Made by a program: the position numbers and the translations under genes. A stretch of 34,197 nt of DNA from Vairimorpha apis BRL 01 (Eukaryota > Microsporidia > Nosematidae), in contig KE647133.1 of the NCBI GenBank assembly GCA_000447185.1, positions 1 to 34,197 on the forward strand, given 5' to 3'. The notes beneath the pieces are model-generated. The model ran no database searches. It was not told the origin of the DNA and saw only the letters and a list, made by a program, of their open reading frames with translations. This document shows, one piece after another, positions 2,037-26,939 of the stretch. Numbering within the stretch: position 1 is the first letter of the stretch; each line of letters starts with the position of its first letter.

Positions 2037-3487
2037 ATATTAACTATAAATTTTTTTTTATATAAATTTTAACCAATAAAAATTAAAATGTTTTAAATTT
2101 CAAACTAAATAAGATTATGACATTTTTTTAAATGATGTTAATACATAAAAAAGTTAATATAATCATCAATAGTATTATATTTTATAAAACATGGATTTTT
2201 ATTACAATAAAAATTTGATGAAATTTTGAAAAAAAATCAATATATATAATATTTAAATATTTTTAATCATATTAATTTTTTTAATAACTAAAATGTTTTT
2301 TATAAAATGTATATGTGTTTTATAAAAAATCAATCATAATATAAAATCTGATTTATTTGATTTTGATTTTTTTAAATTAAAACCTTTAAAAATAATTTTT
2401 ATAAAAATTTAAAATTTTTTTGCATCATTTATTAAAATGACATGTTATTTTATATATGTCTTTAACAAAACCATGACATTATATAAAATTTTATTAATTA
2501 ATTTTTTATTTACACTACAATTACATAAAACAAATATTTAGAAGATATTTTGTAAACACGATACAACAAAAATTAATCAAATTAAAAATAATATTTTAAA
2601 AAAGTCGTTATTTTAAAAATATGAAAAATATTTTTTTGGATAATTTAATTCAATATTATTAGCTACTAGTAATAATTTTGCATTGAAGTATTTTTAAAAA
2701 GATTTGTTTTCAAATTTTTCACATTTTAATCTCTTGTGATTTTTGTTATATTTTTTTATTTATAAGTTCTCTTTTTTGTTATTTTCTTTTTTTACATAAA
2801 TTTATTAATTTTACCATTCTTTTTTCACCTACTCCTTTCTGGGATTATTTTGTTTGCATCCTTGTTTTATCCAAAGAAAAAGATACTAAAGTTTTCTCTG
2901 GTAAGTAATTTACAGGCATTCTTAAGTTTTAAATCATATCCAGCTTTTTAATATATTTCATACAGTACTTAATTCTACATATTTAATGTTATTACAAAGA
3001 AAATATTTTTAGCTGTGCATTATATTTTTTCTTATTCCATATGTTATAGAATCAAATTTCTTAATTTTTATATTTGAAAATAATCATATAACCCTTATTG
3101 GTGATTTTATTTTGAAAGTTAAAATTTCATTATTCTTATTGTCATTTAAAAGAATATAAGTTTTTAATGGTTAAAACATTGATATCATTCTATATATTTA
3201 TATTTTTGCGTTTTTATTTGGCAATATTTTTTATACTGATGAATAACTCTTTTTTATTGTACTTTAAATTTCATGCTTTTCACATAGAAACAGTTTTATG
3301 CTTCTAGTTACTTCATTTCTAAATATAATAAAATCAAATTTTTTTATTAAAATACTTTAAGAAATTTATGAATTTTTATGAGAAAATTAAATATTTTTTT
3401 AAATTTTTTAGTATTTATAAAAAAAATAAATATAAAAATTTTTACAAAAAAACGTTTGGTAAATTATTTTTTAAAAAATAAAATTGT
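2037..3487. other. Intergenic DNA, no supported gene
   Basis: About 1.4 kb. The 2040-2680 part is plain A/T-rich sequence. From about 2690 to 3330 the base composition is more complex and pyrimidine-biased on the + strand, and conceptual minus-strand translations give short protein-like pieces broken by many stops. This suggests an old transposon relic, but I cannot assign a family. Confidence 0.4.
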
Positions 3488-10742: not shown

Positions 10743-12211
10743 ATGTTATTAATTTATTTTTTATTTTTTATAAACTTAAATCAACATCTTTATATACAGA
10801 AGAAAACAAACGAAAAATATCTGCAATATCTAATCAAAAAAATGAATGCTCTGAATTATTAAATATTAAAAATTTTAATCAAATATCTAATGAAAAAAAA
10901 GATTTTAATTTAAATTTTACTTTTTATGAAAATAACAAAGTAAATGACGATAGTTATACAAAAGAAAAAGTTAAAAAACTTAAAATATCAAATAATTTAG
11001 CATCTATAGAAAATATTTTTTTTAAAAATAATTTGTTAATAAAAGATTATTTGTTAAATGATAATATAAATTTTTTTGATGAAATATTAGAAATGTACAA
11101 TTTTTATAATTGTTTTTATGAAGATAAAGCATTTTATGAGATTGATAATTTATATGTTTTTGAAAAATTCAATTCAGTTATAGATAACAATGACTTAAAA
11201 GATTTTTATAATTGTAAAAAAATTTATGATTTTTTGGAAAATGAACCAAATAAAATTATGAGCAAAAATGAATCAGCATTATGTACAGATACTTCAGAAA
11301 ACAATATACATAATAATGATTTTGAAAATATATTAATAAAAAAATTTCAAGAAAACACAAATGATCCATATGCTATTAATGAGTTATATGATAATTTTCA
11401 AAAATGTTTAAAATCAAAAATGTACTTTAGTATTTTGAAGTATATTAAAAAAGATCTGATTAATGTGTTAAAATATGCTCTTAAATATTTACATATAGAA
11501 AACGAAAATAATAAAAATAAGATTTTAAAAATTATAGATCAAAAAAACAGAAAATTAAACTTTCTAAGTAATTTAAATGAATTAATTAATTTAAATTTTG
11601 AAAACAAGATTTTACTGAATAATGAAAAATGTAACTTTATAGAAAGTGTTCTTTACACAACTCATACAACAAAAATTTTAAATCGTACCTTAGAGAAAAG
11701 AATCTATAGTAAATTTATTGTTTTAAATAATTATATAAATAAAAATCACATCAAAGACTACGAATTGGTATATTATGCCATATCTGTTATAAATCAAATT
11801 ACTGACAATAATATAAGAAAATTATGTATTATGGCATTGCAAAACTTATTTATAAAAGATTTTCAAAAATGTAGTTTAAGATTTGTTTATTTAATTGTTT
11901 TCTTGTATAAATTTATGAATGAAAAAGATTTATACGATCAAAATTGGCATGAAAAATTTATAAAAACATTTTCAAATGGTTATTTTCATTTTAAAAATAA
12001 AGGATTTTTCAATAAAATTAAAAACATAATCGTTAAAAATCATTCTTTTTTACCTTATAAATTATATTTAATAATGAATTCTAATAATATAGAAGATGTA
12101 TTATTTGCATATGAAAAATTACAAGAAAATGAAACACAATTACAAATTATTAATTATTATATTGATATTACAAATAGAATCAAAGCAAAAATTTTTGGTA
12201 TTAAATATTAA
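10743..12211 (+). CDS. Secreted protein family alpha, copy 1 (frameshift near the N-terminus)
   Basis: The ATG at 10743 directly follows CCC and starts a signal-peptide-like MLLIYFLFFINLNQHLY. The main frame, which runs open to 12211, is entered by a -1 shift near 10757-10796; candidate sites are a T TTT TTA heptamer at 10757-10763 or a TA repeat at 10790-10796. Within the long frame the first possible initiator (TTG 11033) has no motif and no signal peptide, and the frame is open far upstream (ENKRKISAISNQKNE...), so that position is unlikely to be the real start. Total length would be about 489 codons, close to alpha-2 (about 477). The C-terminal half is helical and conserved with alpha-2 and alpha-3: VINQITDNNIRKLCIMALQN, NEKDLYDQNWHEKF and FAYEKLQENE. 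I do not recognise a known domain. The role is unknown; a secreted host-facing protein is inference. Confidence 0.7.
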
Positions 12212-19374: not shown

Positions 19375-20223
19375 AACACTAATAAACCGTACATTAAGAG
19401 AAGATATTACATATTTACAAATTTTAAAATGTACATTAAAATTTGTTAATGAGTTGACTGATAAAAACTTAAAACAACTATGTTTATTAGGAATACAAAA
19501 TTTTTTTATAAGAGATACATCTAAACATGTACCAAAATTTTACTTCATAATCATTATGTTGTATGCATATGTTTATGAAAAAAATATTATGATTTTGATT
19601 GGAATATAAAATTATTTAAAATATTGGCTTTAAAAAAATTTATTATAGAAAATTTGATACACTAATCACAACATTTTATTATATATGTCAGTAGATGAAC
19701 CCACTCTTACAATACGGATTCCTACATCTACTAACTGAATAAGTGATTATTCTGGTTTATTTATTATTCCCGCCCTTTTATATCTTTAATCTATTTGATA
19801 TCTGACAGGTCGGATTACATTTAATTTATAATTGTTTAGAAGAGGTTACTTATGTTTATTTTACATTTTATATTTCTTACTTTATATTATTTGATAGATT
19901 TGACTTCTGTAATTTATGTAAAACTATTTAAACAAAATAACCCTTCATGAATATTATGGGTTCAGAAAATAACTTTAATAAAACTACTTTATCTACTCCG
20001 TCTTCTATTTCAGATCAGAGTTTACCTCTGACAACAATATATTTAAAAAAAAACCGAATATACATTTTATTGTGTGTATTTTGCAATGAATTCTAAAGAA
20101 TTATGTTATTATTTATATAAATATGCAGAATTACAGAAAAATATGCTCCATTTTGAATTATTAAATAATTTAGTAGATATGTTAGATGAATTAAAGTACA
20201 AGTTATTTAAAATTACTAAATAA
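19375..20223 (+). pseudogene. Secreted protein family alpha, copy 3, C-terminal half, interrupted by a solo LTR
   Basis: From the gap edge the frame reads TLINRTLRED... and FVNELTDKNLKQLCLLGIQN, matching alpha-1 (ILNRTLEKR, VINQITDNNIRKLCIMALQN). After VYEKN the frame shifts by one missing base to YDFDWNIKLFKILALKK, the counterpart of YDQNWHEKF. A second missing base in an A7 run near 19637 leads into KFDTLITTFYYI. There the 351-bp LTR at 19686-20036 is inserted. After it, FKKK...VYFAMNSKELCYYLYKYAEL continues in the same frame and ends at TAA 20221-20223, matching the C-terminus of alpha-1 (MNSNNIEDVLFAYEKLQ). The insertion plus two frameshifts make this a dead gene. Its N-terminal half is hidden by the gap or deleted. 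Confidence 0.85.
19686..20036 (+). mobile_element. Solo LTR, 351 bp, with 5-bp target duplication, inside alpha-3
   Basis: The segment begins TGTCAGTAGATGAACCC and ends CCTCTGACAACA, so it has TG...CA termini. It is flanked by ATATA on both sides (19681-19685 and 20037-20041). Removing it and one ATATA rejoins the alpha-3 reading frame through TTFYYI-FKKKTEY, in register with alpha-1, which independently fixes both boundaries. There is no internal coding sequence, which fits a solo LTR left by recombination of a full element. It is less A/T-rich than its surroundings and shows no similarity to the other two LTRs in the window. Orientation and superfamily are not determinable; a Ty3- or Ty1-like origin is possible. 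Confidence 0.85.
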
Positions 20224-22309: not shown

Positions 22310-22314
22310 GTTAT

Positions 22315-22570
22315 TGACGTGTTTTGACGGGAGCGACCCGTGTTTAAAATATAACTCTAAATAACTTTTTATTTGATGTCCTTGCTCTTTGGTTTTACTC
22401 ATAGATCTTTTCATATTCATACCAGTCGTAATTGTATGTGGGTTCAGGGTAATTTGAATTTATACTTGTTTGTTTCTAGAATTAAACAAAACAAGTGATA
22501 AATTAAAAATGATAAATTAAAATATAAACAATTGTAAAAATATTAATAATTGTGGTAATTATTTACCACA
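22315..22570 (-). repeat. 3' LTR of the gag-only element
   Basis: Same length as the 5' LTR. The two visible differences lie in the stretch GTATGTGGGTTCAGGG (GTATATGGGTTAAGGG in the other copy). It repeats the gag start codon and first 35 codons, but that duplicate frame runs into a stop shortly after leaving the LTR (PSKHVNNI then TAA). Confidence 0.9.
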
Positions 22571-22581
22571 GACTACCCGTC

Positions 22582-22736
22582 TCACCTTTTCAAATTTTTG
22601 ATATGAGTCCAACTCCTATTTAACTTTGCCTTACCGTCAGCACTTCTTTGTATCCACTATATATATGCTCTAACCCTTTTGCACCATATAATTTCTCTCT
22701 ACAATAATCACCTACCTTAATATAATTAATTTTACT
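22582..22736 (-). pseudogene. pol: Remnant of integrase C-terminus (GPY/F module) in front of the 3' LTR
   Basis: On the minus strand, from just after a TAA, one frame reads SKINYIKVGDYCREKLYGAK then GLEHIYSGYKEVLTVRQS. After a 1-base shift the next frame reads KLNRSWTHIKNLKR and stops at 22582-22584, 11 bp from the LTR. The order VGD ... K-hydrophobic ... E-x-I-Y-x-G-x-Y-x-V-L-x-V ... W-x-H-I-x-x-L-K-R is that of the GPY/F module ending Ty3-type integrases. The position directly before the 3' LTR is where pol normally ends. It shows that the gag-only element arose by internal deletion of pol from a Ty3-like parent. Assignment is by pattern only. Confidence 0.7.
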
Positions 22737-22961
22737 TTACTTAAAAAGGGTGTCTAAATGTGTTTTTATATAGATTATAAATTTCATATTATTATTATTA
22801 TTATTCATAATTAGGCATCCTTTAGATGTTATCATGATTCATGTATAGAATGTACCCTCGTGGTTTTTAAAATATATCGTGAATGTACAGATATATCCTG
22901 CCTCTTTTATTTCTAAAATTAGTTTATTTATATATTTTACAACAACGTTGCTATAAACATA
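22737..22961. other. Non-coding internal DNA of the LTR element
   Basis: The stretch between the gag stop and the integrase remnant. It includes an ATT repeat near 22790-22805 and no open frame of note. The deletion junction that removed pol probably lies here. Confidence 0.5.
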
Positions 22962-24623
22962 CTAAGCTTGTGAAATTATCTCTTCTCGACTTCTGTTTAA
23001 TACGCTTATAAGTTGATTGTTGTTATTTTGATCAAAATTTATAATCTTACTTCTTTTTTTTATAGGGGGTGGTCGAAATTCACTTTTTATGATTTCATCT
23101 GTCCTTAAGTTTTCTTTTTTCCTCTTTGTCTTAACATACTTTCTAAATAATTTTAATTTTACCTTCTTTCTAAATATTTTTTTATATAATTTTCTAGTGG
23201 TTTTGTCTTTATCCGGCTTTTTCATTAAATCTCGTTCCTTATTATTATTGTATTTAAGATGATTTAATTTAACTAAATTTTTATTGTTAGTCGTTTTGCA
23301 ATGCCTATATGTTTTTGTTTTAGGCAATTTAAGTTTTATGTTATGACTGTCATTTTTTACTGTTGTCAACCTTATATTGGTGTGTTCGTTTTTAACTTCT
23401 GTTTCGTAAATATTTATTTTATTTAATACATCTACATGTTTTGTAGGGATTTGTTCTTCTTTCATAATTAATAGTTTTGTCTCTGATAACAATTCTTGGT
23501 TTTTTTGATTTTTTATCAATGGTTTTTGCTGCGTATCTTTTGTATTTATTTTAATTTCTTCTGTTTCATCAACCTCAACATGTCTATCTTCTGATGCTTT
23601 ATAAATGAATGTTTCGTTTAATTTTTCCTTTACATTCTTGTTTAGGATATTCTGTTCCTTTTCTTTAATATAGTCTTTGATTATCATTTTTCTAGACGCT
23701 ATATCGTTGACATCCTTGATCTCCTGGGAAGTTTCTTGAATTATTAAATTTTTATTTATCGCTTCGTTCAATGCACATTTTTTTGTTTTATTCTTTAGAG
23801 TATTACAGTTTCTTGTGTCGTGACTGTAATTCAATTTGTGTAAGCTGCACCATTTTTTATTTGTTTCCGATTTTGGATTCCCTGTTATAGTTTGTTGTTG
23901 TGATTTTATCTTTGATCCATTGGCAATCAATTCGCATTCTAATTGATATAAATATTCAAAAATATAGTTAACCTCATTATTTATCACGTTGAGCTTAGTC
24001 AATTCTAAATGTGTATAGTCTCCTAATCCTTTGATGAAGACTTCTTCAAATTTGGTTTTTCTCTCTGACTTTTTTAAGTTGTATACATGTGTGTAACCTG
24101 TTAGCAAATTTTCAATTTCATTTTTGTATTCTTTGATGGTACTGAAGTTAGTTTGAGACGTTTTGTCTATTCTTCGCATTATGTAGCGTTTTTTATCACT
24201 ACTATATAGTATGTCAAGTAATGACTTTCTTAATTTAAGATACGAATCTTTAGGTAGTTGTATTTTAGCTTCGTCCACAATTATTCCGTGGAATATTAAA
24301 GCCATTTGTTCATCATTCCAGTCGTTTGCTGAGGAAATCTCTTCGAATTGGTCTAAAATATTTATTGATAAGTCTGTAGAAAGATCTTGAATTTTTAGTA
24401 ATTTTTCTTTTAATATTACTTTTGTACCTTTAACTGGTTTTTCTAATTCTATATAATCTTCGTAGTTTTTAAATTCTTTTTTATTATGTTTCTCGTCTAG
24501 CGCCTTTGAATTCAAATTGACGTGTTTTGACGGGAGCGACCCGTGTTTAAAATATAACTCTAAATAACTTTTTATTTGATGTCCTTGCTCTTTGGTTTTA
24601 CTCATAGATCTTTTCATATTCAT
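22962..24623 (-). CDS. gag: Ty3-like Gag with CCHH-order zinc knuckle
   Basis: A 553-residue intact frame, the structural capsid/nucleocapsid protein of the element. Residues about 85-235 are helical and correspond to the retrotransposon gag (capsid) region, including DWNDEQMALIFHGIIVDEAK. A zinc knuckle of the C-X2-H-X5-H-X4-C type follows, with C259, H262, H268 and C273 in WCSLHKLNYSHDTRNC. This is the variant common in Ty3-type Gag, in place of CCHC. The remaining 280 residues are Lys- and Asn-rich, with no D-T/S-G protease motif. The first 35 codons lie in the 5' LTR. The frame ends 378 bp before the LTR-proximal pol remnant. Compared with the surrounding genes it is less A/T-rich and has no stops, consistent with recent mobility. 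Confidence 0.88.
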   Translation of the reverse strand: MNMKRSMSKTKEQGHQIKSYLELYFKHGSLPSKHVNLNSKALDEKHNKKEFKNYEDYIELEKPVKGTKVILKEKLLKIQDLSTDLSINILDQFEEISSANDWNDEQMALIFHGIIVDEAKIQLPKDSYLKLRKSLLDILYSSDKKRYIMRRIDKTSQTNFSTIKEYKNEIENLLTGYTHVYNLKKSERKTKFEEVFIKGLGDYTHLELTKLNVINNEVNYIFEYLYQLECELIANGSKIKSQQQTITGNPKSETNKKWCSLHKLNYSHDTRNCNTLKNKTKKCALNEAINKNLIIQETSQEIKDVNDIASRKMIIKDYIKEKEQNILNKNVKEKLNETFIYKASEDRHVEVDETEEIKINTKDTQQKPLIKNQKNQELLSETKLLIMKEEQIPTKHVDVLNKINIYETEVKNEHTNIRLTTVKNDSHNIKLKLPKTKTYRHCKTTNNKNLVKLNHLKYNNNKERDLMKKPDKDKTTRKLYKKIFRKKVKLKLFRKYVKTKRKKENLRTDEIIKSEFRPPPIKKRSKIINFDQNNNNQLISVLNRSREEIISQA

Positions 24624-24773
24624 ACCAGTCGTAATTGTATATGGGTTAAGGGTAATTTGAATTTATACTTGTTTGTTTCTAGAATTAAACAAAACAAGTG
24701 ATAAATTAAAAATGATAAATTAAAATATAAACAATTGTAAAAATATTAATAATTGTGGTAATTATTTACCACA
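24518..24773 (-). repeat. 5' LTR of the gag-only element
   Basis: In the sense direction this 256-bp LTR opens with the 20-bp terminal palindrome TGTGGTAAATAATTACCACA (24773-24754) and closes with ...ACGTCA at 24518. It contains the gag start codon at 24623 and the first 35 gag codons. Gag translation therefore starts inside the LTR, as is known for yeast Ty1. The U3 promoter must lie in the roughly 150 bp upstream of that ATG. Confidence 0.9.
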
Positions 24774-24778
24774 GTTAT

Positions 24779-25506: not shown

Positions 25507-26939
25507 ATGAATAAATTAATTTTTTATTTTTTATCGATAAATTCAACACATACAGATATTAATTTAATTTTATTAGAGTCTAAATGTTTTAATAAAATTA
25601 AGGTTTCAAATGGTGATTTAAATACAACAATAAATTTTGAAATATCTTCAAATGAAAATTCTAATCATAGAGATTTTAATGGGGAAAATTCTAGAAAACG
25701 AGTCATAGATGATGAAAATATGATTCTGAATTCTATTGATATTAAGAAACAAAAATTATTAAAAAATGATAATTTTTATCAAAACAAATTGAATATTGGA
25801 AAAGATATTAATTTAGAAGAAAGAAATGAAAATTTAAATTTTTTAGAAAAATCATCTGATAGTGAAAAATATCTCTATGTAAATGATGAATTAGAATCAG
25901 ATATTTATTTAGCATCAAATGAAAAAATCAATCTTAATAATGTTAAAGATAATACACACCCTAACAATATCATCAATAATATAACGAGTTTATATGACAA
26001 AGAAGTTACTGATTTTAACATAAACGTAATTAATAAAAAAGATAAAAATAATCAATATAGATTTGCAAACAAATTTATAGATAAAAATATATTAGAATTT
26101 TTAAATAATTTTGATGAAAGTAATATTTCTTATGAATTTATTAATATATTTGAATTAATAGAAAATGATTTAAAAAATAGTTTGAAAAATTCAATAAAAT
26201 ATATTTATGAAAAAACAGTATTTTAACAAGTATTTTATATAATTTAAATCAACACAGATCTTTAAAAGCCAAAATATATGAACTTCTTATTTTTGCAAAC
26301 GAAATATTAAATATAAATAATTTAAATGTTTACGAATTAAATTCAAAAAAATCTTTAAAAATTTACACACTTCTTTCTTCAATCTATCAAAAAAAACGGT
26401 TGCTTACAAATATAAATAATAAATTACGTAACAAATTTAATCAAATGATAATTAAAATTGATAAAAATTATTTTAATGAAAATGAAATTGTAAGTTTTAC
26501 TATTAACCTTATTAATGATCTGACAGATAAAAATATGAAACTTTTTTGCATTTACGGATTACAAAATTTTTTTGTCGACGAATATGATAATTATTTGCAT
26601 AGATTTATTCATATTTTAACATTGTTATTTACATTTATTAATGAAAAAGAATATTTTATTTTAGACTGGCATGAAAAATTATTTAGACTATTAACAATAT
26701 CCAAAAATAAGTATAAAAATCCTAAATACTTTAACAAAATTTGTCAAAAAATAATTAAGTTTGGAATTTATAATGTGTTTTATCGTTTATATATTTCTTT
26801 AAATGCAAAAATGAGCAATATATCTTTAGATTGCTACGAAAAATTACAAAAGGACATTAAACAAATTTATGTTATTAATTATTTAATTGATATAATAAAT
26901 AAGACAAAATGTAAATTATTCAATATTTTACAAGAATAA
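25507..26939 (+). pseudogene. Secreted protein family alpha, copy 2 (one frameshift)
   Basis: The first frame starts at ATG 25507 with a signal-peptide-like MNKLIFYFLSINSTHT. It continues through a low-complexity Asn/Asp/Lys region, including NSRKRVIDDENMILN (compare NKRKISAISNQKN in alpha-1), and stops at 26226. The -1 frame is open from 26211 to 26939 and carries the conserved half: LINDLTDKNMKLFCIYGLQN, LDWHEKLF, YEKLQ. The two overlap only at 26211-26226, so the missing base lies in or next to the A6 run 26210-26215. No canonical slippery heptamer is present in this overlap. Restored length would be about 477 codons, as in alpha-1. Whether it is a live gene with a base-call error or a young pseudogene cannot be told here. 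No known domain. Confidence 0.75.

Follow-up and report, generated by a model that had tools for sequence, protein, structure and literature searches.

The DNA analysed here, a 34,197-nucleotide stretch of Vairimorpha apis BRL 01 (contig KE647133.1; below, the window), comes from a honey-bee microsporidian also known as Nosema apis. At 22315-24773, with its sense strand on the minus strand, it carries an element made of a pair of long terminal repeats (LTRs) and a single long open reading frame (ORF). We consider this window element to be a member of a persistent, non-autonomous, gag-only family of Ty3-type LTR retrotransposons that is mobilised in trans, a reading to which we give a probability of roughly 0.85. 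The parts of the element on which this reading builds are:

22310-22314, no strand: left copy of the target-site duplication GTTAT, identical to 24774-24778
22315-22570, minus strand: 3' LTR, 256 bp, with 2 differences from the 5' LTR
22962-24623, minus strand: single ORF of 553 codons, Gag plus a lineage-specific C-terminus, with no internal stops
24518-24773, minus strand: 5' LTR (in sense orientation), 256 bp, TG...CA, with the Gag start codon inside it at 24623
24774-24778, no strand: right copy of the target-site duplication GTTAT, identical to 22310-22314

A recently inserted element with an intact Gag frame

The original prediction, made from the letters alone, described two 256-bp LTRs with two differences, a perfect GTTAT duplication and an intact 553-codon gag with a CX2HX5HX4C knuckle, and all of these were recovered. 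The LTRs have TG...CA termini and differ at 2 of 256 positions (126 and 133 of the sense-strand LTR; 99.2% identity). In 300 mononucleotide shuffles of the window element, none of the six frames stayed open for more than 174 codons, so that chance does not account for the 553-codon frame. The ORF has 52 matches across the genome, several per locus. Compared with Pfam it gave no match at E<=1, and a sequence search of PDB returned a single match at E 2.4. Because the start ATG lies within the 5' LTR, the LTR itself encodes ~35 codons; the Gag start codon of yeast Ty1 is also inside the LTR.

A dispersed family and its pol-bearing relative

The genome searched comprised 5.96 Mb in 223 contigs. 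At least 26 LTR matches were found in it, of which 10 belong to five paired elements, 4 are solo LTRs that were examined, and the other 12 are partial. Four of the paired elements are gag-only, on C72 (the window element), C204, C217 and C43, and the fifth, on C219, bears pol. It had been proposed that dispersed copies with distinct 5-bp duplications would confirm a mobile family, and that the idea would fall if every copy of the LTR flanked a full pol. Only one of the five paired elements has pol, and clear 5-bp duplications surround the window element (GTTAT), the C217 copy (CAAAC) and the C219 copy (TATAT, in AT-rich DNA). At the solo LTRs on C131, C127, C155 and C159, the 5-bp flanks were identical in 4/4.

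The lineage-specific segment of the window element recurs in the three other gag-only copies, whose frames are broken, with a DNA identity of 93% in C204, 78-81% in C217 and 66% in C43 (329 of 939 bases matched). Matches to the basic tail encoded there were confined to the four gag-only elements, both in a protein search of the same genome (E<=10) and in a DNA search (E<=1), which points to a common origin; one of the DNA matches is a chance 28-base match inside C217. The C43 copy retains the integrase (IN) end as one contiguous 636-nt match (85.5%), whereas the window element, C204 and C217 have a further internal integrase loss in common. The simplest history suggested by this comparison would be a single founding loss of pol and a later trimming step, in the course of which separate insertions took place.

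The two LTRs of a pair differ at 2/256 positions in the window element, 18/256 in C219, 31/253 in C217 and 34/226 in C43. By this measure, the sole pol copy found with the same LTR is older than the gag-only copy in the window. The LTRs of the C204 copy (L010:923-1178 and 3146-3405) are very unlike each other, with 145/236 aligned positions identical (61%).

A full-length relative with the same LTR had also been sought, and C219:70722-74818 (4,097 nt) answers to it, its pol being in broken frames. Spread over several broken frames, this locus follows the Ty3 order: Gag, protease (PR), reverse transcriptase (RT) with RNase H, then integrase. Scores above the Pfam cut-offs were obtained for RT, RNase H and rve; the protease, at E 0.0021, is below its cut-off and has the DTGS motif. 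The C219 LTRs are 89% and 91% identical to those of the window element, and at their ends the last 15 bases are identical, as are the first 15 in the 3' LTR, with one change in the 5' LTR. Internally, the window element matches C219 over positions 1-1064 (79%) and 2003-2459 (85%), together with a 53-column integrase piece at 1857-1908, and between these stretches it carries sequence of its own. Autonomous Ty3/gypsy elements (Metaviridae) are defined by a PR-RT-RNase H-IN pol, which the window element lacks. Judged by these alignments, it is derived from a Ty3-type parent and is not an autonomous Ty3/gypsy member. The C219 relative and the 99.2% identity of the LTRs support the description of the element as young, gag-only, non-autonomous and of Ty3-type ancestry.

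A gag protein search in which 7,995 candidates were scored returned, besides the window element's own protein, only NAPIS_ORF02406 (P0002) of Vairimorpha apis BRL 01. Over two blocks (162 and 260 aa) it is 100% identical to C204. This match identifies the genome as V. apis or one almost the same, and rules the protein out as an independent species record. The blocks lie ~200 bases apart in the C204 DNA and are apparently bridged by a predicted intron. The comparison suggests that NAPIS_ORF02406, deposited as hypothetical, is a broken retrotransposon Gag of the window element's family, and that the intron placed over the gap by its gene model is probably spurious.

Gag, a protease-like remnant and a basic tail

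Within and behind the ORF the following parts were distinguished:

23913-24455, minus strand: capsid (CA) domain, residues ~57-237, from the predicted structure
23805-23849, minus strand: CHHC zinc knuckle CX2HX5HX4C, residues 259-273, sequence CSLHKLNYSHDTRNC
23529-23708, minus strand: residues 306-365, probably the remnant of an inactivated protease in which the catalytic DTG/DSG is replaced
22965-23528, minus strand: basic C-terminal tail, residues 366-553 (188 residues; 50 K+R, 20 D+E, isoelectric point 10.3)
22866-22917, minus strand: integrase-core remnant, non-coding here, matching L040:3411-3463 (77%, E 1.6e-5)
22571-22771, minus strand: integrase C-terminal remnant, frame broken, reaching the 3' LTR, matching L040:3841-4063 (79%)

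In the predicted structure, residues ~57-237 form a retroelement capsid fold; the model also resembles the restriction factors Ty1 p22 and Drt2, as well as many other capsids. The knuckle that follows has the same spacing in C219. The idea that residues 306-553 are wholly new was dropped in part, as residues 306-365 resemble the start of a protease. Their Smith-Waterman score against a protease piece of C183 was 83, relative to a shuffled mean of 43.4 (SD 7.1; 0/2000 shuffles reach it), in a post hoc test for which the C183 piece was picked after the match had been seen. By tblastn alone, in a small database, the same match has E 0.005 for the window element and 5e-4 for C204, and pieces of C43 reach E 4.6 only. 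Residues 306-365 are probably an inactivated protease piece. For the tail, a search with residues 362-553 against 5.8 billion proteins, which could return only proteins of 0.55-1.75 times the query length, scored nothing at E<=10 (164 candidates). The structure predicted for the tail was of low confidence.

Two degraded integrase pieces sit between the ORF and the 3' LTR. The earlier statement that protease, RT and integrase core are all missing holds in that there is no RT and no integrase core gene, and has to be amended for the protease-like remnant and the integrase pieces. Nor is the element as 'clean' as had been supposed, since its frame continues through the protease-like remnant into a lineage-specific basic tail and its capsid part is recombinant.

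The capsid part is a mosaic

24054-24504, minus strand: recombinant segment, element positions ~270-720, nearest to the pol-bearing C183 (89%) and not to C204 (58%) or C219 (61%)

Compared with C204, the element is 91-96% identical at positions 1-225 but only 52-76% at 226-750; identity is again 92-100% at 751-2025, and lower once more near and in the 3' LTR. Identity to C183 is reversed in the middle of the element, at 85-93% over 226-750. Among 367 informative sites, 162 support C183 and 205 support C204, and they are clustered: the largest excursion was 135, compared to a maximum of 33 under permutation, and 0/10,000 permutations reach the observed value. The trees conflict accordingly: the window element joins C183 and C199 in that of the capsid region, and C204 in that of the knuckle region. 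One breakpoint falls between element positions 254 and 274, the other near 720-729, and together they enclose most of the capsid domain. By these site patterns, the capsid part of the window element's Gag is recombinant with a different pol-bearing family, of the C183 kind. Such a mosaic suggests co-packaging with pol-bearing elements.

Purifying selection on the Gag core

Observed residue changes were compared with the expectation from random placement in 2000 replicates. Codons of the broken copies came from tblastn matches; these are biased towards conserved stretches that stay in frame, and stops in C217, C43 and C183 may be under-counted. In the swapped capsid region, 29 residues are changed relative to C183 where 48.0 were expected (0/2000 replicates at or below). 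The knuckle region gave the same picture against C217 (24 changed, 37.2 expected; 0/2000), C219 (11 and 19.2; 1/2000), C43 (35 and 49.1; 1/2000) and C183 (41 and 54.3; 1/2000); C204, with only 6 nt differences, has too few to tell (605/2000). Nei-Gojobori ratios of nonsynonymous to synonymous change (dN/dS) for residues 195-305 were 0.12-0.22 in the three copies where they could be computed, and for residues 306-553 were 0.72 (C204), 0.60 (C217) and 0.48 (C43). These counts indicate that the Gag core, capsid and knuckle, is under purifying selection. The protease-like part showed no constraint in this test (e.g. C217, 29 changes compared to 25.4 expected). In the tail, stops are below expectation in C204 (0 compared to 3.1; 54/2000), C217 (2 compared to 8.0; 15/2000) and C43 (1 compared to 3.7; 185/2000). 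The tail is perhaps kept open for its length or charge, with what looks like little sequence conservation.

Sequences next to the LTRs

24500-24517, minus strand: conserved stretch directly 3' of the 5' LTR, at the expected position of a primer-binding site, inside the gag frame, holding the palindrome TTTGAATTCAAA

This post-LTR stretch is similar in 5/5 paired elements, and the palindrome TTTGAATTCAAA is present in 4/5, with one change in C219. Within 1 mismatch, TTGAATTCAAAGACGG occurs at 6 places genome-wide; the window element itself has 2 mismatches to it. Self-priming of the kind used by Tf1 was considered and rejected: the complement is 9 nt long in the window element and C204, and shrinks to 6 nt in C219 and C217 and to 5 nt in C43. 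The last bases before the 3' LTR, at the expected position of a polypurine tract, are GAGACGGGTAGTC, which is not purine-only. The last 13 nt before the 3' LTR are the same in the window element, C219 and C217, have one change in C43 and are different in C204.

Proposed mobilisation in trans and alternative explanations

The following course of events would account for these observations. An ancestor of the C219 kind, itself pol-bearing, lost the front of its IN and most of the PR, RT and RNase H regions, and the frame now passes from Gag via the protease-like remnant to the basic tail. The gag-only derivative is present at several places, its Gag core held under purifying selection, and most of its capsid-coding stretch was later exchanged with that of a pol-bearing family of the C183 kind. 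Whereas these losses, the tail, the dispersed copies, the selection on Gag and the capsid exchange are supported by sequence, the particle, helper and integration steps are ones that we infer. RNA of the window element would be translated into Gag, and this Gag would form particles, probably mixed with a helper's Gag-Pol. Inside the particle the helper RT would copy the element's RNA, and the helper integrase would recognise the common LTR ends and insert the copy, creating a 5-bp duplication. Template switching between RNAs packaged together would have left the mosaic Gag as its footprint.

Several results weigh against this account. With the RT (63 matches) and IN (26 matches) of C219 as queries, no intact helper was found in the assembly, as no frame was long enough for a full polyprotein. 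The assembly measures 5.96 Mb relative to a published 8.5 Mb (PMC3726280). No convincing tRNA primer complement to the post-LTR stretch was seen among tRNAs from 30/43 tRNA places (55 records, including duplicates); the longest, 8 nt, paired with an interior segment of tRNA-Gln and was judged a chance match without a formal test. The C43 copy has no target-site duplication, and that of C204 is doubtful, with CTAAT flanking the two LTRs only when the 3' LTR is read as ending without the usual CA. Residue changes in the tail are approximately neutral (C204, 28 compared to 26.6 expected; C217, 67 compared to 67.9; C43, 38 compared to 42.9, 139/2000), so that constraint on the tail appears weak, resting mainly on the few stops. 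The mosaic could stem from gene conversion, and C183's own copy of the capsid has 7 stops where 6.3 are expected under neutrality, indicating that the C183 locus has decayed.

The missing helper bears on the reading that the system is a fossil, in which the helper pol is extinct in the species and the window copy was the last insertion. Consistent with this, the 5.96 Mb hold no pol copy of the same family with an intact frame. However, if the genome has the size published for Nosema apis, the assembly lacks perhaps a third of it, repeats being what assemblies lose, and other families might help in trans; we consider the fossil reading less likely than not. Missing assembly sequence, extinction and help from another family are all possible reasons for the helper's absence. 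The published account of the Nosema apis genome, estimated there at 8.5 Mb, reports three LTRs and three gypsy elements (PMC3726280). The longest open frame among the helper matches has 1012 codons and lies on C163, without RT; a very long open frame is recorded for one RVT_1 match (C219:36244-36708).

The C163 frame (L042:822-3824, minus strand) is an observation in its own right. It is long and open and holds Gag, protease and integrase (H2C2, rve); the interval from protease to integrase gave no match to RT or RNase H, and no LTR pair was found around the frame. It represents a second kind of element that is defective and yet open.

The mosaic capsid might instead have arisen at the DNA level, by gene conversion or ectopic recombination between integrated copies, and it would then say nothing about co-packaging. 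The very different LTRs of C204 suggest that exchange after integration may happen in this genome. Yet the swapped piece is internal, keeps near the limits of one protein domain and sits in the copy with the most similar LTRs. In the wheat RLG_Quinta elements, moreover, PMC11302176 reports gag identity of ~65% between lineages with flanks that are >90% identical, and attributes the same pattern to template switching. On balance an origin by gene conversion is unlikely.

A bolder and decidedly speculative interpretation is that the capsid swap was a helper switch. The lineage would have kept its own LTR, knuckle and tail and taken over most of the capsid of another pol-bearing family, allowing its particles to co-assemble with the Gag-Pol of that family. 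The Ty3-type elements of this reduced genome would then persist as a complementing network of defective parts without an intact autonomous element, the parts being the gag-only lineage, the C163 Gag-PR-IN frame that lacks RT, and the broken pol copies.

It is very improbable that Gag now serves the host, or acts against transposons as a restriction factor like Ty1 p22, with the LTRs as leftovers. An intact Gag with capsid and knuckle under purifying selection would fit such a role, as would the likeness of the capsid model to p22 and Drt2, which it has in common with many other capsids. Against it, the 99.2% identical LTRs and perfect duplication indicate fairly recent transposition of the window copy, and the copies on C204, C217 and C43 are broken. 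A one-off deletion, in which a full-length element lost pol once and left a dead end without a family, is hardly tenable: in its favour, the pol-bearing C219 shares with the window element the LTR and the two flanks of the replaced region, but the lineage-specific segment is common to three other paired copies (C204, C217 and C43) and the LTRs of the window copy are much younger than those of C219 or C217.

Relation to known systems

The closest parallel to a gag-only family mobilised in trans is RLG_Quinta of wheat and oat, the partner of the autonomous RLG_Cereba, which encodes Gag and a domain of unknown function and has no RT or IN (PMC11302176). Like RLG_Quinta, the window element has Gag plus an extra domain, no RT or IN, LTR ends in common with a pol-bearing partner (here C219) and swapped gag segments. 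Such partner pairs are also expected to have the same primer-binding site (PMC11302176); here the post-LTR stretch is similar, and no primer site can be named. Unlike RLG_Quinta, a plant element with centromere targeting, the window element resides in a small genome in few copies, has a protease-like remnant and starts its Gag in the LTR.

Plant TR-GAG elements likewise consist of LTRs and a single Gag ORF without RT or IN, and the movement of one of them, of the ATCOPIA63 subfamily, has been seen in Arabidopsis (PMC8704663). Multiple dispersed copies are expected of this kind, and there are four paired gag-only elements here, three of them with broken frames; TR-GAG elements were described in plants. 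In Athila (Ty3/gypsy, Arabidopsis), whole families lack pol, Gag is under purifying selection and hybrid gag genes arose by recombination (PMC2410132). The family here resembles Athila in all three respects; unlike the window element, some Athila keep env, and their host is a plant. The 'semi-autonomous' RLG_Sabrina and RLG_WHAM of wheat, which also retain Gag and have no RT or IN, are thought to feed Gag into a common system (PMC9744471), but they encode Gag with a protease domain where the window element has a remnant only. By its structure and by analogy with these cases, the window element would work like a TR-GAG or Quinta-type element; its structural features agree with theirs, and mobilisation by a partner is the inferred part.

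The Ty3/gypsy elements of Anncaliia algerae and other microsporidia belong to the same superfamily and host phylum; unlike the window element, they are described as one polyprotein (PMC4202319). In a literature search including the accessible parts of PMC4202319, PMC3726280 and PMC7175516, with subscription papers mostly outside its scope, no gag-only LTR element of a microsporidian or fungus was found. The view that such an element would be unusual is thus upheld for the host and not for the principle, since plants are already documented to have lasting gag-only LTR families (TR-GAG, Athila, RLG_Quinta). If borne out in a microsporidian with its small genome, the case would demonstrate that a lifestyle of borrowing enzymes and supplying the shell arises independently, with two marks, an added C-terminal domain and a swapped gag, common to wheat and the window element. 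The few copies make the history readable, both the order of deletions and the capsid exchange.

Other features of the window

Two stretches flanking the element region, 19419-19507 and 26485-26573, are 71% identical to each other. ORFs nearby, e.g. 11093-12211 and 26445-26939, may form a divergent multigene family, as judged by eye only.

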